From contig CALFBI010000009.1 of the NCBI GenBank assembly GCA_937951675.1, positions 62,001-126,000 of the forward strand: a stretch of DNA of 64,000 bases, in the 5' to 3' direction. This document shows positions 6,678 through 52,428 of the stretch, in pieces; the stretch's first letter is position 1, and the number at the start of each line of letters is the position of its first letter. Under the pieces are notes generated by a model. The model searched no databases. It worked only from the letters and a program-made list of their open reading frames with translations, and was not told the origin of the DNA. Source of the DNA: an uncultured Verrucomicrobiales bacterium (lineage in GTDB: Bacteria > Verrucomicrobiota > Verrucomicrobiia > Verrucomicrobiales > Akkermansiaceae). The position numbers and the translations under genes were made by a program.

Positions 6678-8411
6678 TTAACCCCTGTCCTCGCGGATCG
6701 GAATCGGACGGCCACGATAGCGAAGGCCTTTTGCTCCATCGACGAGCTTATCAAATTGTGATTCTTTCACCTGCACGAGACTGAAATTTGTAAGAATTTT
6801 GATCGGCCCAATACTTTGGTCTTCGATCCCGGTAGTGCGATAAAGCATCCCTGTGATTTCACCAGGTTGAGCTCCATCACGAGAACCAATCCCCATGTAA
6901 ACACTCTTGTATCCTGCGCGTGGACCTTGGGAGCGGTCGTCACGACCTCCTCCTCGGCGATCACGATCTCTTCCGCCTCCATCACGACTATCGCGGCCGC
7001 CTTCACGAGGGCGTCTTTCACGACGGTCACCACGGTCACGATCTCCTCGCTCATGACGACGAGACTCGCGCTCATTTTTGAGGCGTTCGTAGTAAGTAGG
7101 ATCGTCTTCTGGAAGTTTTTCTGCTTTAGAAAAGCTAACCTTCTCTAAATGCTGCCACAGAGCTTCGATAATCAAATCAGGATCTTCAACGAGCTCCTTA
7201 AGACTTTTAATATGTTCCTCGCTCTCACCAGGCTTCACATCAGCAAATACTTTTTTGATTAAACCTGCACGACGTTTATCGATCAGCTCATTCATTTTGG
7301 GAACTTCGCGATCTACAAATTTCGTCTCAGTTGCCTTTTGTATATACTTACTTAAGCCTAACTCCCGGTTCGTGATCAGGTTAATCGCTAATCCTTCACG
7401 GCCAGCTCTTCCGGTCCGACCAATCCGGTGAATATAATCTTCTGAATCTCTTGGAATCTCTAAGTTGATCACTAAATCAATATCGTCAACATCAAGACCA
7501 CGCCCTGCTACGTCTGTTGCAACCAGGCAACGAATTTTTCCTGTTCGGAAAGCATTCATCACCCGCTCACGCATGACCTGGTTCATATCACCATGAAGTC
7601 GATCGACTCGATGCCCTCTTTCGGCAAGGTAATCTGCGGCACGATCAACCATTGCTTTTGTATTTGCAAAAACAATTGATAAGCGAGGATTCTCCACTTC
7701 GATCAAACGAGAAAGAACTTCGAATTTACCGCGTGATGAAACTTCACAAACTTGTTGGGTAACAGAATCAGCAGTCCGGTTTTTTCCTTTAATTTCAACC
7801 GTTTGCGGAGAATTACCGAATTTATCGATCAGACGTCTAACGGGTGAGTTCATCGTCGCAGAGAAGAAGAGCATTTGCTTATTCTCTGGAAGATGGTCAA
7901 GGAGACTTTCCATCTCTTCACGGAACCCCATATCAAGCATCCGGTCTGCTTCATCTAAAACAGTATAACCCACTCTATCGACTCGGAGCGTGCCGCGACG
8001 AAGGTGATCTGAAAGACGGCCTGGTGTTCCTACCACAATTTGAGGACCACGACGAAGAACTTCAATTTGTTTACCAATCGGAGCACCTCCATAAAGTGCT
8101 TCGATTTGAAGGCCTCGCATATTACCAGCAAGTTTACGTATCTCAGCAGCCACCTGTAAGCCTAGCTCACGAGTCGGGCATACCACTAAAGCCTGCACCT
8201 GGCGTAATTCGGGATCAATACTATGAAGAATAGGAAGACCAAAGGCCGCTGTTTTTCCTGAACCAGTTGGTGATAATCCTACGAAATCACCTCCTGCTAG
8301 CACCAATGGAATCGTGCTACTTTGAATATCGGTAGGTTCCGTAAAACCTAATCCGTTAACTGTCTCTACAAGTTCTGGCCGTAGCCCGAGGTCCGCAAAT
8401 GTCACGCTCAT
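6678..8411 (-). CDS. deaD: DEAD-box RNA helicase with DbpA-type RNA-binding domain
   Basis: This 577-residue ATP-dependent RNA helicase probably acts in ribosome assembly and cold adaptation. Q motif (FADLGLRPELVETVNGLGF), Walker A PTGSGKT, DEAD (in VLDEADRMLDMGF), SAT (FFSATM) and HRIGRTGRAG are all present. After the helicase core, a helical linker leads to an Arg/Gly/Asp-rich low-complexity stretch (about residues 445-495) and then a DbpA-like RNA-binding fold (YMGIGSRDGAQPGEITGML to the end, with RGRPIPIREDRG). This order is that of DeaD/CsdA rather than of RhlB or RhlE. The gene is monocistronic between a terminator and a long leader. The symbol is a best family match. Confidence 0.9.
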   Translation of the reverse strand: MSVTFADLGLRPELVETVNGLGFTEPTDIQSSTIPLVLAGGDFVGLSPTGSGKTAAFGLPILHSIDPELRQVQALVVCPTRELGLQVAAEIRKLAGNMRGLQIEALYGGAPIGKQIEVLRRGPQIVVGTPGRLSDHLRRGTLRVDRVGYTVLDEADRMLDMGFREEMESLLDHLPENKQMLFFSATMNSPVRRLIDKFGNSPQTVEIKGKNRTADSVTQQVCEVSSRGKFEVLSRLIEVENPRLSIVFANTKAMVDRAADYLAERGHRVDRLHGDMNQVMRERVMNAFRTGKIRCLVATDVAGRGLDVDDIDLVINLEIPRDSEDYIHRIGRTGRAGREGLAINLITNRELGLSKYIQKATETKFVDREVPKMNELIDKRRAGLIKKVFADVKPGESEEHIKSLKELVEDPDLIIEALWQHLEKVSFSKAEKLPEDDPTYYERLKNERESRRHERGDRDRGDRRERRPREGGRDSRDGGGRDRDRRGGGRDDRSQGPRAGYKSVYMGIGSRDGAQPGEITGMLYRTTGIEDQSIGPIKILTNFSLVQVKESQFDKLVDGAKGLRYRGRPIPIREDRG

Positions 8412-44888: not shown

Positions 44889-44917
44889 TTTGATCATCTG
44901 ATCTTTCCTTTTTTATC

Positions 44918-44953
44918 AGCGCCGTTTCTCTTTTTTGAGAGCGGCGCTTTTTC
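44918..44953 (+). terminator. Strong terminator after the PEP-CTERM gene
   Basis: Arms AGCGCCGTTTCTC (44918-44930) and GAGAGCGGCGCT (44937-44948), with a loop of T, are followed by TTTTTC. It lies 29 bases past the stop. Confidence 0.85.
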
Positions 44954-45012
44954 TTTGCCTTCATTTCGAAAAGTTCTTTGCCGATCGGCCTAGGATCGCT
45001 AACTTCTCGCCA

Positions 45013-45882: not shown

Positions 45883-47286
45883 ATGACAACTCCGATCCCA
45901 GAAGAGCTCGAAGAATCCTTGGACTACCTACGCCAGGCCGTGCAAGGGAATGATGGGAGTGCTATTTTAAAGATCTGTGACTCTCTTCATTACGCCGATC
46001 TGGCTTCGGCCTTTGTGGAGTTTTCAGAGGAAGAACAAATCTTTTTTCAAAAGACTTATGGGTCTGAAAGGTTCGCTGACATTTTTGCGGAATTACCTGA
46101 TACGATTTTATCAACAGTTCTCAATCGCTTTAACAAAAACGAGCGCAAGCAACTTCTCAAAGCACTCAACGATGATGACCGGGTTGATATCCTTCAAGAC
46201 CTGAGTGATAAGGAACAAAGGGACCTTCTTTCTCTCCTTCCCGACGAAGATGAAGCCCTCACTAGAACTCTCCTCCGCTACGAGGAAGATACCGCCGGGG
46301 GCCGGATGACGACTCATTTTGGTAAAGTCAGATTTGATTTAAGAGTTAAAGAAGCGCTTGATATCCTACGAGAGCATCTCGAATCCACCGAAACTCTTGC
46401 TCGGATCTTCGTCCTTGATCATGATGGTGTTGTCCTTGGGAAGCTACGCATGCGAGATATCGCCTTTTCCACCTGGGACACTCCTGTCAGCGATATTATG
46501 GTGCCTGTAGAGCATCAAATTCTGGCCACCGCCGACCAAGAGGAAGCGGGTTCAATGTTCGCTCGTTATGACCTCATCGTGCTCCCAGTAGTGGATGAAG
46601 CCAATCGGATCTTAGGAGTCATTACTCACGATGATGCCATCGAAATTCTCGAAGAAGAATCTACGGAAGATTTCGAGAAAGTAGCCGGTATTGCTGGAGA
46701 TAGCTCGGAAAACACTTACCTCAACACGAATATTCGCCAACATTTTTCACGTCGAGTGGGCTGGCTTGTCACTTTAGCAATTCTCGCAATTGCCTCAGGT
46801 TACGTCATGTTAGAATTTGAGCACACCTTGAGCACCATTCCGCTCTTGGCGCTCTTCCTCCCGATGGTCATTGCGGCTGGAGGAAATACGGGAGGGCAGG
46901 CTTCGACTATGATTATTCGTAGCATGACTCTCGGTGAGCTCGATGTTTCAGACCTTGCTCAGGTCGCTTTGAAGGAATTAAAAATAGGGGTGATTTTGGG
47001 GCTTATTCTTGGCACGACGATGGCTTTCATTGCGAGCTTCGGGATTCCCGCCTTCAAACCCACCGTTCCAGAAAATTTCAGCTACCCTCTTTTTGCTCTT
47101 GCGATTGGAATGGCGATGATGGCACAGGTGACCACCTCGGCTGTGATAGGAGGACTACTCCCCCTTTTGGCTAAATCAGTCAAATTAGATCCTGTCGTCG
47201 TCGCTTCCCCTGCGATCACGACGATTGTCGATGTGACCGGGATGGTTATTTATTTCACGATTGCTCGGGCGGTTTTAGGCGTTTGA
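45883..47286 (+). CDS. mgtE: Magnesium transporter MgtE
   Basis: 467 residues. MgtE is a Mg2+-gated Mg2+ channel. The N-terminal helical domain (ADIFAELPDTILSTVLNRFN repeats) and two CBS domains (VPVEHQILATADQEEAGSMF, VVDEANRILGVITHDDAIE) sense Mg2+. The five-segment pore follows, with MVIAAGGNTGGQASTMIIRS in the first conserved segment, ILGTTMAFIASFGIP, and ASPAITTIVDVTGMVIYF. The length is normal. It follows ftsY by 18 bases and its end overlaps the convergent MauE-like gene by 32 bases. Confidence 0.95.
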   Translation: MTTPIPEELEESLDYLRQAVQGNDGSAILKICDSLHYADLASAFVEFSEEEQIFFQKTYGSERFADIFAELPDTILSTVLNRFNKNERKQLLKALNDDDRVDILQDLSDKEQRDLLSLLPDEDEALTRTLLRYEEDTAGGRMTTHFGKVRFDLRVKEALDILREHLESTETLARIFVLDHDGVVLGKLRMRDIAFSTWDTPVSDIMVPVEHQILATADQEEAGSMFARYDLIVLPVVDEANRILGVITHDDAIEILEEESTEDFEKVAGIAGDSSENTYLNTNIRQHFSRRVGWLVTLAILAIASGYVMLEFEHTLSTIPLLALFLPMVIAAGGNTGGQASTMIIRSMTLGELDVSDLAQVALKELKIGVILGLILGTTMAFIASFGIPAFKPTVPENFSYPLFALAIGMAMMAQVTTSAVIGGLLPLLAKSVKLDPVVVASPAITTIVDVTGMVIYFTIARAVLGV

Positions 47287-47728
47287 GTAACACTTTTTCC
47301 AACATGAGAAAAAGACTCAATCCGATCAGAACCATATTTCCAATAAGATGTAAGGGGTAGTTACTCGTTTGCCCTGCTTGCGAGCTAAAACACCCGCAAT
47401 GAATTTCTAAACCTCGAGCCCAGGCACTCGCGATTCCCGCAATAAACATCAATAGCATGACAAGAGTTAATGCTAAGCTAGCCTGGTATTTCCTCCCCCA
47501 AATCAGAGCCAACCCGCATACAAATTCGAGTGCAGGAACCCCATAGGCCACCATTAAAAGAGTCACCCCACTCACTAAGCGGTAATTCTCGACATCTTGA
47601 ATAAAGCTTTCCATCCGGAAAAACTTCTCTCCGCCAACATAAAGCCAAAAGACACCCAATCCGATTCGTAAAACGAACCCTACCGGGTGGCAATGTTTTT
47701 CTGGACCTTGAGGCAGCAGTAAACTCAC
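47255..47728 (-). CDS. MauE/DoxX-family integral membrane protein
   Basis: 157 residues from GTG 47728, eight bases after the stop of the giant lyase-like gene. Four membrane segments are visible, with family features GVFWLYVGGEKFF near the first and a short cysteine motif IHCGCFSSQAG between the third and fourth, as in MauE/DoxX-type proteins that work with thiol-disulfide partners. The 3' end overlaps the mgtE 3' end by 32 bases. Its role is unknown; the lack of a clear redox partner means no pathway can be assigned. Confidence 0.7.
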   Translation of the reverse strand: MSLLLPQGPEKHCHPVGFVLRIGLGVFWLYVGGEKFFRMESFIQDVENYRLVSGVTLLMVAYGVPALEFVCGLALIWGRKYQASLALTLVMLLMFIAGIASAWARGLEIHCGCFSSQAGQTSNYPLHLIGNMVLIGLSLFLMLEKVLLKRLKPPEQS

Positions 47729-47736
47729 AAGAAAAT

Positions 47737-50700
47737 TTATTGGTCCTTCTGGTCCTTCTGGTCCTTCTGGTCCTTCTGGTCCTTCTGGTCCTTCTGGTCC
47801 TTCTGGTCCTTCTGGTCCTTCTGGTCCTTCTTATACTTCCGATAGAGCTCGGCCACGTCTTTGGCAGTCAGTTCTTTATTCTGCAGACTGACTTCATCGA
47901 CAATCCCTTTGACTCCTTCAAAAAGCTTGATTGAAGTCACGTGCGCCTTGCGCTCATTAACGGTCTTGAGTCCACGAGCAAGATGTTCCCCATTGGCATA
48001 AATATTCACATTTTTCCCAAAGGTCGCCGTTAAGTAAATCCATTCGTCTTTCTTGAAGCCGGAGCTCTTGGAGAGATCTGAAATCGCAATTTCGGAGCCA
48101 CGGAAATAAGAGGCTTGTAGATTAGCGTAACGCAATCGAATCGAAGGATGAGAAGCCCATGAAGAACCAATGACGGTCACATCTGACAGCTTATCCGCTT
48201 TCAGCCAAAAGCTGAGAGAAAAGGCATTCTCACTTGTTTTCAGACCATCGATCAGAATCGATGATTTTTTACCTGAAAATTGGATCCCTGTCCCTTCTTT
48301 ACCCTCAGCTTCTTCGAGTCCATAACCACTGACTTTCAAAGACGCAATCCCGGTGCTTTTTACAACGTTTCCTTCTCCTAACTCCCCATTAAGATGGGCA
48401 ATCAACTGGTCATTGAAAAACTCTTCTTGAGAAGCATCTGCGGCTGTCATTCCGGCCGTAAGAGGAACAAATATTTTCGACCCAGGGAATTTCACCTGAC
48501 AACTCGCATTGCTAAATGAAATCGCTAAGCGTAAATCATAGATTCCACTTTTGAGTTTCACTCTCCCGCTAAGCACTGGAGCATCGACCTGATTACGAGT
48601 GACGCTAACGCCTCCTAGCTTCAGATCGTTAGCACCAGCTCCGTCTAATTTGAATTCATAAACTCCTGGCAAATCGGCAAAAAACTGGCCTTCGTAAACA
48701 AGTAACTGATTCGTATTATCACTACTTTCTCGGCTTGCTTGCACGAATGACTGACGATAGGGCTTCTCCCCTTTTGTCTCAAAGAATGACTTAGGAAGGC
48801 CTTCAGCACTCAAGGCTGCAATCATTCCTTTCGTTCCTTCGATCGCACCACCACTTCCCTCACCTTCAAAGCGGTTATACGATGAGAGTAATAACCCTGG
48901 CTTCGATTCAGCAAAAGCTGCGCTGGTTTTAGGAGTTACTAGTTTTTCAGCCGAAGCTAATCTTGCCTTTGAAGAATCAAAAGCAAAACGTGACGCAGGG
49001 ATTTCTAGATATTCAGTATCTGACTCACCCATAAGCTTTACTGATAAAGGGTAACGGCCAAGGGCTGATTTTTTCCAAAACATAGGATCACATGCAATGA
49101 GACTAAACTCATGCCATCCTTTCTCTAAAGTCAGCTGCCCATAGCGATTTTCAAGCGAAGTCCCATAGACTTGATGCACATTAATCAACTCCTGGTCTGC
49201 CACTACAAGGCGCACGGGAGCATTAGAATAAACCTCAAATGACTGCACGCCGCTTTTCTCAACATAAAAGCGACCTTGATAATGATAATACCCTTTGGCC
49301 TGCTCACTGGCCGGAAGAGTTGCGGTCACATCAGGAACCGTTAAATCCGACTGAGCGGCAGAATAAATAGGTTTGAGCTTACTCAAATCAGGCAGCAAAG
49401 ATTTGCCGGCACGAAAGATACCATCTTTTTCATCGAAAATCGTCAGATGTTTCTCGTAAACCTTCAATTTCAAGCCGGGTTGATAACTTTGAGGTAATTT
49501 TTTGACGCCTTTCAAAGGATTCGTAATGAGAACCTTTAGAGCCGTAGAAGCGGAAGCAGCCTCCACTGCTGTTCCTTCTTGGTGAGGCCAATAACGAGCG
49601 AAATTTTTCACTTTGACCGTCCCTGTTTCTTCCACTGTGATCACATTTGAGGCGACAGGAGAAGATTGAGTCGGCTCTGAACCATCGGTTGTGTAGCGGG
49701 TCACTAAACCTGCTGGTGGAGCTTTTAATTTTAGTTGAGCCCCGGCACTCATCACGACTACTTGCTCTTCATCTAAACGATTACGGTCTGGAGTCCATCC
49801 CGCGGCAAGGTCAAAGACAGGAGCTTTGGGCGCCCCTAAACTCCCCCCGATCACTTTCCCGTCTTTCACCACACTCATCACGGTGCGGTCATTATCAGTT
49901 TTGTCGAAACGGTAAATCTTCCGCTCAGGACCCACGCTCACTTGAAGCTCTGTCCGCTCTTCGTTCCAGGTTGTCACTGGAATTTCATCCCCGTAACGAT
50001 AAGGGAAGATCATGACTTTAAATTGGGCATCTACTCCAAAAGAAGGAATCCTAACCCGTGTAGGGCCGTCTGCTTGTTCAAAAACTGGTGAAGGGAAGGC
50101 GTGAGGAGCATTGCGCATGAGGGCTCGAACAAGCAGCATGGGATCTCCTTTCTTGGGTTGCCTTTCAACCTGATAGCCATAACGCTCAAAACGCTTATGC
50201 TTCGTATCTGCGAAGCATACATGAATATCAGTCATCGGAAGCTTATTGCCCACTTCGCTACTCAGGTAACGGAAACCTGCTTTGGATTCTACTTTGGCAA
50301 GAGCCGCATCACGAATCAAATTAAAGCACCAATCATACTGATTCTGGTTCTCATCTTTTTTCACGTCATCCACAATAATGAGGTAAGGAGCTTTTCCTCG
50401 TGAAAGATGCATCGTGCGGAACACATAATCGACTCGATTCTTCCGTTCATAAAGTTCAGGGCCTCGTGTTTCTCCATGCCAATTCCCCCAATCAAGTCCA
50501 GCCAACCCTTCTTGGTATTTTCTCATATGTGGCTGAAATGGAGGTTCTACATTCCGATTGAGATATTTATCACCTACGAAGTAAGAGTTCATATGAATTG
50601 AACTAGCATCCTTATCCGCAATACTTTGATGCCATTTATAAAAACCTTTTTCTAACTTCTTCCACTCATAGTAATCTGTTAAATCTGAAACAATGGTGCT

Positions 50701-52428
50701 TCCGTCTTTATTATCACTCATCTGAATCGTGCGCGCCGCAACTGGCCCGTAATAGCCCCCTTTACCATTAATCAGCACGGTGTTACGGAAAAAGGAATCC
50801 ATATACCAGCGATCATAAACACTCCACATCGTGCCATGAGCACTCAGCTGAAAATCACCCGCTTCTGGAGATTCATGCCCGGCTGAATAAATATCTGCAC
50901 GCGCTTCATAATGCACAAAGAGCGCATCCTTATCCCAAGAGCTACGAGCAGCGGCCACCCCACGCTCAGGATCTGCTCTAAATAGTGGTTTATTACGAAT
51001 GGCCTCAGGCAGTTGCTCTTCTTCATCATAATCAACCGACACCCCACCCTCTCCGACTAAACCTTCCGTAGCTCCAAGTAAAAAAAGCTCTTTAAAATGA
51101 TAACCTCCATATCGATGTCGTGAGGTGTTCTCGTTAACCCCTTCCTTCCCGAAACAATCAAAGCCGTGATCTTTCATCCGGCTTTTGTAAAAGAAATCTA
51201 CCCCAACATCATTAGGGTAAACTAGTTTCATAACCGGGCTCCAGTTATGGAATTGATCCATCCATGGACCACTCCCTCTTCCTAAATACCAACGATACTC
51301 TTCTTTTTCTATTTCCCCAATATCAATAACACCTTCCTTCGTCTTATAATGGCGCATGCCAACATAACGAGCATCCTCAACCTTGCTATCAACCATCGCT
51401 TTCAAAAAACTATGGGCGATGAAATTTCTTTTCCGACGAGTTAAAGCGTAAGAAATCGTTTCTGGAATAAACCCCTTGAGCTTTTCATGTAAATATCCCT
51501 GAGGAGAACCATCATAAGTGTATTTATGAGTTAATGCTTTCGCATAGCCTTCAACGATCCGGGCATCGTAACCCTCTTCCCCTTCAATCGCGAGAGCTAG
51601 GAGAGGGAGATCCTCACCCATGCTCATATGATTATTAATGAACATATTACCAGGAAGCCCCATCCCTGCACTGAATCGCCCTGAAGTCAGTTCAGAAAGA
51701 TACGTTCTCACTTCTTTCCGTTCCTCATCAGTGAGCCATTCGTAAAGGTAATCATATCCCCAAGGCACAATCGGAGCCCCAGGCTCTGACAGGTAACCAT
51801 TTTTAAAGGTCACACTCTTCTTCGCCAACTCCTTCACTCGCTTCTCGCCACCTTGCTGATAAGCTTCTTTAAACGGAACGCCTCCAACCCGATCAACATT
51901 GGTCCGTGACATGTAATACCAATAATCACGAATCGTCTTCGTATCAGGATGCGCCATCATGACATCAAGCATCACTTGCTTGTAACGAACTTCTTCAAAC
52001 AACTCCTTTTTACAGGCTTCGATCTTCTCTGGATCTCGGGTAATGAGCGCTTCTAATGCTCGTTCATTATAACGTTTAGGGTGCTTTGCATCTTTTACAA
52101 CGTCTTTCCATACCGCTTGGAAAACTCGATTGGCATGCTCCCCTTTTTCAATTTGTTCCCTGAAACGGTCTACGTCTTCTGGGCTAATGAGGATCCGAGG
52201 GTGAACTCCTGGGGCTGGAACTTGCGAAATCAATTCATCCGTATACCCATCCGCTTCGCCTAAATAAGTAAAAGGGCGCTCTGGCAGCTGAAAACGCTTT
52301 GCAAATTCACCACTGAGAACCGATTCGGCATCAGGGGAAAAAGCACCACGGTATTCCTTTGTTTCAGCAAAGGCTGGAACACCTGCCAGCAGGGCCAAAC
52401 AGGTAGTAAAAGTGATTCTAGAAATCAT
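47737..52428 (-). CDS. Giant secreted heparinase II/III-like polysaccharide lyase with PA14-like, LamG and KDQ-repeat regions
   Basis: 1563 residues. Signal peptide 1-21. An alpha-helical toroid domain (about 75-460; INNHMSMGEDLP at 265-276 is a likely active-site stretch) precedes a heparinase II/III-type beta domain (about 485-720; GHESPEAGDFQLSAHGTMW). A chitobiase/hexosaminidase-C-type domain follows (VTRYTTDGSEPTQSSP, about 905-960), then two PA14-like modules (about 1040-1180 and 1230-1340) and a LamG/concanavalin module (about 1390-1530). Residues 1534-1563 are ten KDQ repeats. The lyase domain would cleave uronate-containing polysaccharides; the substrate is unknown. The C-terminus lacks a PEP-CTERM signal, unlike the two PEP-CTERM proteins in this window. 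Confidence 0.75.
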   Translation of the reverse strand: MISRITFTTCLALLAGVPAFAETKEYRGAFSPDAESVLSGEFAKRFQLPERPFTYLGEADGYTDELISQVPAPGVHPRILISPEDVDRFREQIEKGEHANRVFQAVWKDVVKDAKHPKRYNERALEALITRDPEKIEACKKELFEEVRYKQVMLDVMMAHPDTKTIRDYWYYMSRTNVDRVGGVPFKEAYQQGGEKRVKELAKKSVTFKNGYLSEPGAPIVPWGYDYLYEWLTDEERKEVRTYLSELTSGRFSAGMGLPGNMFINNHMSMGEDLPLLALAIEGEEGYDARIVEGYAKALTHKYTYDGSPQGYLHEKLKGFIPETISYALTRRKRNFIAHSFLKAMVDSKVEDARYVGMRHYKTKEGVIDIGEIEKEEYRWYLGRGSGPWMDQFHNWSPVMKLVYPNDVGVDFFYKSRMKDHGFDCFGKEGVNENTSRHRYGGYHFKELFLLGATEGLVGEGGVSVDYDEEEQLPEAIRNKPLFRADPERGVAAARSSWDKDALFVHYEARADIYSAGHESPEAGDFQLSAHGTMWSVYDRWYMDSFFRNTVLINGKGGYYGPVAARTIQMSDNKDGSTIVSDLTDYYEWKKLEKGFYKWHQSIADKDASSIHMNSYFVGDKYLNRNVEPPFQPHMRKYQEGLAGLDWGNWHGETRGPELYERKNRVDYVFRTMHLSRGKAPYLIIVDDVKKDENQNQYDWCFNLIRDAALAKVESKAGFRYLSSEVGNKLPMTDIHVCFADTKHKRFERYGYQVERQPKKGDPMLLVRALMRNAPHAFPSPVFEQADGPTRVRIPSFGVDAQFKVMIFPYRYGDEIPVTTWNEERTELQVSVGPERKIYRFDKTDNDRTVMSVVKDGKVIGGSLGAPKAPVFDLAAGWTPDRNRLDEEQVVVMSAGAQLKLKAPPAGLVTRYTTDGSEPTQSSPVASNVITVEETGTVKVKNFARYWPHQEGTAVEAASASTALKVLITNPLKGVKKLPQSYQPGLKLKVYEKHLTIFDEKDGIFRAGKSLLPDLSKLKPIYSAAQSDLTVPDVTATLPASEQAKGYYHYQGRFYVEKSGVQSFEVYSNAPVRLVVADQELINVHQVYGTSLENRYGQLTLEKGWHEFSLIACDPMFWKKSALGRYPLSVKLMGESDTEYLEIPASRFAFDSSKARLASAEKLVTPKTSAAFAESKPGLLLSSYNRFEGEGSGGAIEGTKGMIAALSAEGLPKSFFETKGEKPYRQSFVQASRESSDNTNQLLVYEGQFFADLPGVYEFKLDGAGANDLKLGGVSVTRNQVDAPVLSGRVKLKSGIYDLRLAISFSNASCQVKFPGSKIFVPLTAGMTAADASQEEFFNDQLIAHLNGELGEGNVVKSTGIASLKVSGYGLEEAEGKEGTGIQFSGKKSSILIDGLKTSENAFSLSFWLKADKLSDVTVIGSSWASHPSIRLRYANLQASYFRGSEIAISDLSKSSGFKKDEWIYLTATFGKNVNIYANGEHLARGLKTVNERKAHVTSIKLFEGVKGIVDEVSLQNKELTAKDVAELYRKYKKDQKDQKDQKDQKDQKDQKDQKDQKDQKDQ
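47740..47829 (-). repeat. Ten perfect 9-bp tandem repeats encoding (KDQ)10
   Basis: Nine units read CTGGTCCTT and the last, next to the stop, is TTGGTCCTT on the plus strand, i.e. AAGGACCAG/CAA coding Lys-Asp-Gln. The unit is nine bases, so changes in copy number keep the frame and the stop codon, which follows directly. Confidence 0.97.

Follow-up and report, generated by a model that had tools for sequence, protein, structure and literature searches.

A probable slippage-grown 9-bp minisatellite encodes the C-terminal tail of a predicted secreted lyase-like protein in an uncultured Verrucomicrobiales bacterium

Introduction

In-frame tandem repeats are a feature of the Ureaplasma multiple-banded antigen, a surface protein for which size variation is documented, and of similar size-varying surface proteins; the protein described here carries such repeats as well. 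More generally, when the repeat length of a prokaryotic satellite is divisible by three, the satellite commonly encodes an amino-acid repeat (PMC6749651). Our locus resembles these coding satellites in that a tandem DNA repeat is translated as an amino-acid repeat with the frame kept, but its unit is very short (9 bp), it lies at the very C-terminus of its protein, and Verrucomicrobia are not mentioned in that survey.

The nearest counterparts in sequence are found in Bat-like VWA-TPR proteins (Bacteroides aerotolerance operon type, cf. PMC3557215), which contain the same residues and, for several genera, exactly the same DNA unit, AAGGACCAG. In those proteins the array is an internal linker leading from the TPR to a conserved C-terminal stretch that ends in ...KDW/KTW, whereas the array reported here is terminal and belongs to an unrelated secreted enzyme. 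A literature search for K/D/Q repeats in Bat-like proteins returned nothing relevant. The same 9-mer, read in another frame, also encodes collagen-like (GPE)n repeats in proteins of phages and firmicutes (L072, L079, L082 and L183-L186), the last four being IMG/VR phage contigs with fibre-like proteins; in our gene, by contrast, the GPE frame is noncoding and has no start codon.

Results and Discussion

Sequence and assembly of the array

The window (the 64,000-nucleotide stretch of contig CALFBI010000009.1 analysed here) contains on its minus strand, at 47740..47829, nine copies of AAGGACCAG followed by a final AAGGACCAA, a 9-bp minisatellite coding for (KDQ)10. The ten codon triplets, AAG GAC CAR, are in the reading frame of the gene and run directly into its TAA stop codon (47737..47739, minus strand, read 47739-47737). 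The first-pass annotation had reported ten perfect in-frame copies immediately before the stop, and both the position and the count were reproduced from the sequence, the ORF list and TRF (47741-47831, period 9, 10.1 copies, 100% matches, score 182). By TRF ranking this is the strongest tandem array of the window by a wide margin; the perfect periodic run measures 91 bp, and the runner-up across periods 3 to 39 has only ∼3 copies. With head-to-tail units of at least 7 bp, a location within an ORF and a unit length that is a multiple of three, the array belongs among coding minisatellites. It is the single instance of a AAGGACCAG array in the 2.05-Mb genome (28 contigs). Weak tandem repeats also occur in the window at 44903-44956 and 6940-6988 (periods 22 and 21, 75% matches), one of the two at the start of an FtsY-like (SRP54 GTPase domain) gene.

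None of the three forward frames is interrupted by a stop within the array; they read KDQ (the one used), EGP and RTR. The EGP frame is that of the downstream MauE-like ORF, into which it continues, and is open backward through the array as far as a TAA immediately before it. Translation in the collagen (GPE) frame was rejected on account of this upstream TAA and the lack of a start codon.

The reliability of the copy number can be judged from a second array in the same genome. Its Bat-like gene carries a perfect 9-bp array of a different unit, AAGCAAGAC (KQD), at which the gene is split between two contigs, one ending in 105 bp of the array (L125, G000:C19) and the other starting with 99 bp of it (L148, G000:C16). 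This break, together with the position of the arrays of several relatives at contig ends, would favour an artefact in the window, in the form either of a wrong copy number or of two loci falsely joined at a common repeat. However, the 91-bp run is shorter than both array ends at the broken site and thus lies under the limit of the assembly, no other array of the unit is present for a false join, and, because what lies upstream of MauE-like genes varies, no expected neighbour is missing; we consider an artefact very unlikely. Since perfect arrays of around 100 bp are where this assembly breaks down, the window array was probably resolved at its true length, albeit near the limit. A chimeric contig at the array was discarded as an explanation, given that the genome has no second array of the unit and that no conserved gene is expected upstream of MauE.

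The lyase-like host protein

The array closes the gene of a 1563-aa secreted protein (47737..52428, minus strand) that was characterised by translation, Pfam, PDB profile matches, and AlphaFold with Foldseek. The initial description of a giant secreted protein agrees with its size, its multidomain architecture and an N-terminal signal peptide recognised by eye (MISRITFTTCLALLAGVPAFA). Pfam matches were limited to CHB_HEX_C_1 (residues 894-943), a weak PA14 (residues 1047-1086), LamG_3 (residues 1388-1526) and Fn3_assoc, with the (KDQ)10 tail occupying residues 1534-1563. As neither VWA nor TPR is among these matches, a Bat-like VWA-TPR identity for the host protein was dismissed. The first 870 residues had no Pfam match, the protein had none in NCBIfam, and the whole single sequence searched directly against the PDB likewise gave no match.

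A profile built from ten relatives (A1) did match PDB entries, namely PL15 oligoalginate lyase (4e-12), dermatan sulfate epimerase and heparinase II. The AlphaFold (AF2) model reached a pTM of 0.76. Its best 25 Foldseek matches (E 3e-15 to 5e-9) were all heparinases, alginate/ulvan/GAG lyases or dermatan sulfate epimerase, and at E <1e-3 the matches remained confined to the heparinase/alginate-lyase superfamily. By model, Foldseek and profile, about residues 21-870 form the alpha/alpha toroid plus antiparallel beta-sandwich that characterises the heparinase II/III-like superfamily, and residues N246, H498 and Y567 (A1 segment numbering) are invariant across the ten relatives. We regard the protein as a secreted heparinase/alginate-lyase-like protein with a predicted enzymatic role. 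Its N-terminal 850 residues have a fold in common with Atu3025 (3a0o), exoHep (6lja), Alg17c and heparinase II (heparinase II/III-like, PL15/PL17/PL21 lyases), although the structural alignments show no more than 9-13% sequence identity, and it differs from these enzymes by its additional CHB_HEX_C, PA14-like and LamG regions and by the tail.

Sequences related to the host protein were found at seven more loci of its own genome. Many heparinase/alginate-lyase-like paralogs are present in this one 2.05-Mb genome (L022, L028, L030 and L032-L038, besides window 47737-52428), an abundance that suggests polysaccharide specialisation.

KDQ arrays in other genomes

An exact 36-mer (four units) was found in 17 genomes of an 84,980-species collection. 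Judged by frame and flanks, ten of the 17 have it in a Bat-like VWA-TPR gene, four in other proteins read in the KDQ frame and three in collagen GPE repeats. The ten Bat-like arrays, which all sit just after the TPR, come from seven Verrucomicrobiota (including Luteolibacter pohnpeiensis), Shewanella mangrovi, an Ignavibacteria MAG and a Deltaproteobacterium MAG; that of S. mangrovi (L073:5623-6027) comprises 45 perfect copies of AAGGACCAG, or 405 bp. Assignment as Bat-like was based on Pfam for two representatives and NCBIfam for one, and on sequence resemblance for the remainder; VWA and TPR were found, and Leptospira Bat models matched under their curated cut-offs. Two of the four non-Bat arrays in the KDQ frame lie near a stop codon, in Streptomyces (L074, 6 residues before it) and Actinomadura (L077, 7 residues before it).

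Within the family, KDQ arrays of at least four units (synonymous-codon pattern) occur in 15 of 254 genomes, and the 14 besides the window genome all have them in the Bat-like gene, in a DNA unit identical or almost identical to that of the window array, and with tracts of 4 to at least 24 units. A sample of the phylum yielded six KDQ arrays in 388 genomes: the window array, four in Bat-like genes and one without a clear gene. In Verrucomicrobiota, KDQ-coding 9-bp arrays are thus found almost only in the linker after the TPR of the Bat-like VWA-TPR gene, and the window array is the exception. This recurrent expansion of a short unit (4 to 45 units; Verrucomicrobiota, Ignavibacteria, Shewanella and a Deltaproteobacterium) is a by-product of the analysis that we find more interesting than the window array itself. 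Bat-like arrays repeatedly break assemblies, and the gene is therefore likely truncated in many MAGs. In one Verrucomicrobia MAG (L083/L090:289-700) the Bat-like array shifts reading frame inside the repeat, which is either a real frameshift or an assembly error. An array of eight copies of AAGGACCAA (L152, G433:C277) has no clear coding gene.

Origin of the tail

The sole full-length relative of the host protein that was found is a paralog on contig C24 of its own genome, with 37% identity over nearly the whole length. The alignment reaches residue 1530/1531, at the end of LamG, where the paralog stops (...KELAQ-stop) without a tail; the tail is therefore an add-on. Neither the 58 relatives nor the 387 genomes of the order that were searched contained an ortholog with the host C-terminus or tail, and the window genome is the sole representative of its genus in the searched set. 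Across 18 window genes, the codons AAG, GAC and CAG are the minority synonyms (35, 33 and 37%), yet the array uses them throughout except for the last CAA. Given the residues, such a codon set has P about 4e-14, which indicates that a DNA unit was copied and not that residues were selected singly. This uniformity also speaks for the recent expansion proposed in the first-pass annotation.

We estimate a probability of roughly 0.7 that the array is a de novo slippage minisatellite, recently grown by local slippage and with little functional effect. Growth would have started from one 9-bp unit, located at the very 3' terminus of the gene (e.g. ...YKKDQ-stop or similar), that was duplicated and then amplified to ten copies via replication slippage. 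The frame would have been kept throughout, the unit having no stop codon and a length that is a multiple of three, and each step would only have extended the C-terminus past the last folded domain (LamG), where added residues are presumably tolerated. What results would be a zwitterionic K-D-Q tail with no net charge, flexible or forming a lone charged helix, of small functional consequence; strains may come to differ in its length, by three residues with each event. That 9-bp slippage is active in this lineage follows from the second expansion in the same genome, the AAGCAAGAC array of the Bat-like gene, and the Streptomyces and Actinomadura arrays count as two further cases at protein ends. 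Read this way, the window array would be neat but ordinary slippage at a tolerant protein end, and the tail is probably dispensable.

The properties of the tail bear on this near-neutrality. With 10 K and 10 D its net charge is zero, so the proposal that a "strongly charged" end binds anionic polymers by charge is weakened. A single-sequence AlphaFold prediction of the tail fragment gave a continuous helix that begins before the tail and runs to the end (pLDDT 81-90), the remainder of the fragment being poorly modelled. Over-prediction of helices is common for repeats of this kind, and the helix is for this reason only a hint, one that counts against a neutral tail insofar as the tail may be structured.

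Slippage could instead be under selection, the array acting as a contingency or length-tuning locus that alters the length of a surface-exposed tail, and so attachment or presentation, between strains; each unit would add three residues, or about 4.5 angstrom if helical. Such a role would fit the perfection of the array, its place in a secreted protein that has a lectin-like LamG domain, the predicted helicity, and the 4- to at least 24-unit span of the Bat-like tract in related species, and variable-length repeat regions are known in bacterial surface proteins, at least in the case of the Periscope proteins (PMC8201768). We nevertheless think it unlikely: the searches of relatives and of the order gave no ortholog, the net-neutral tail has no domain beyond it to display, and 9-bp units cannot shift the frame or turn the gene on or off, so that tail length alone can change.

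The occurrence of the same triplet, as an identical 9-mer in other genera, in the unrelated Bat-like gene is a hint that K/D/Q tracts may be selected for, or that arrays may move between genes, as opposed to a purely local accident. If selection were responsible, K/D/Q 9-bp minisatellites would be a module that keeps arising independently, a charged helix of tunable length, both within and outside Verrucomicrobiota; it would usually serve as a Bat-like linker and would here have been recruited to form the tail of the secreted lyase-like protein. We hold this generalisation to be distinctly doubtful. Transfer would mean ectopic recombination from a Bat-like array, of an ancestor or another species, into the end of the secreted-protein gene, and the confinement of the other 14 family arrays to Bat-like genes, in the same or nearly the same unit, is consistent with it. 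Against this, the genome's own Bat-like array differs in unit and residue order (AAGCAAGAC, KQD), the window array carries no Bat flank, and the 9-mer also arises in unrelated genes and as GPE collagen in other phyla, so convergence is easy; a transferred origin appears quite improbable. A copy of the genome's own present Bat-like array was discarded outright as the source, on the same difference of unit and order.

The downstream gene

A MauE/DoxX-like membrane protein is encoded at 47255..47728 on the minus strand (ORF list, Pfam and homologs), its GTG start lying 8 nt past the stop of the large gene. This spacing fits translational coupling, and every unit of the array contains a Shine-Dalgarno-like AAGGA, so the repeat could act as a signal that sets coupling or re-initiation of the MauE-like gene. 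The closest AAGGA, however, is 15 nt from the GTG and beyond the usual spacing, additional copies further upstream alter nothing at the start, and RNA folding is ordinary (z -0.44), which together make such a role most improbable. The same fold score disposed of an RNA hairpin or terminator function for the array. No promoter-like site was found, and the only terminator-like match falls where the MgtE and MauE genes end.

What may be a diverged unit, AAGGTCCAGAA, occurs 31 bp beyond the array on its 3' side (approximately 47690..47700, minus strand), within the 5'-terminal part of the MauE-like ORF. It agrees with the array at 10/11 positions, a match reached by shuffles at a frequency of 0.003-0.03 depending on length (uncorrected), and is suggestive only. 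Among MauE-like homologs, conservation is confined to the core, from about residue 14-19 onward.
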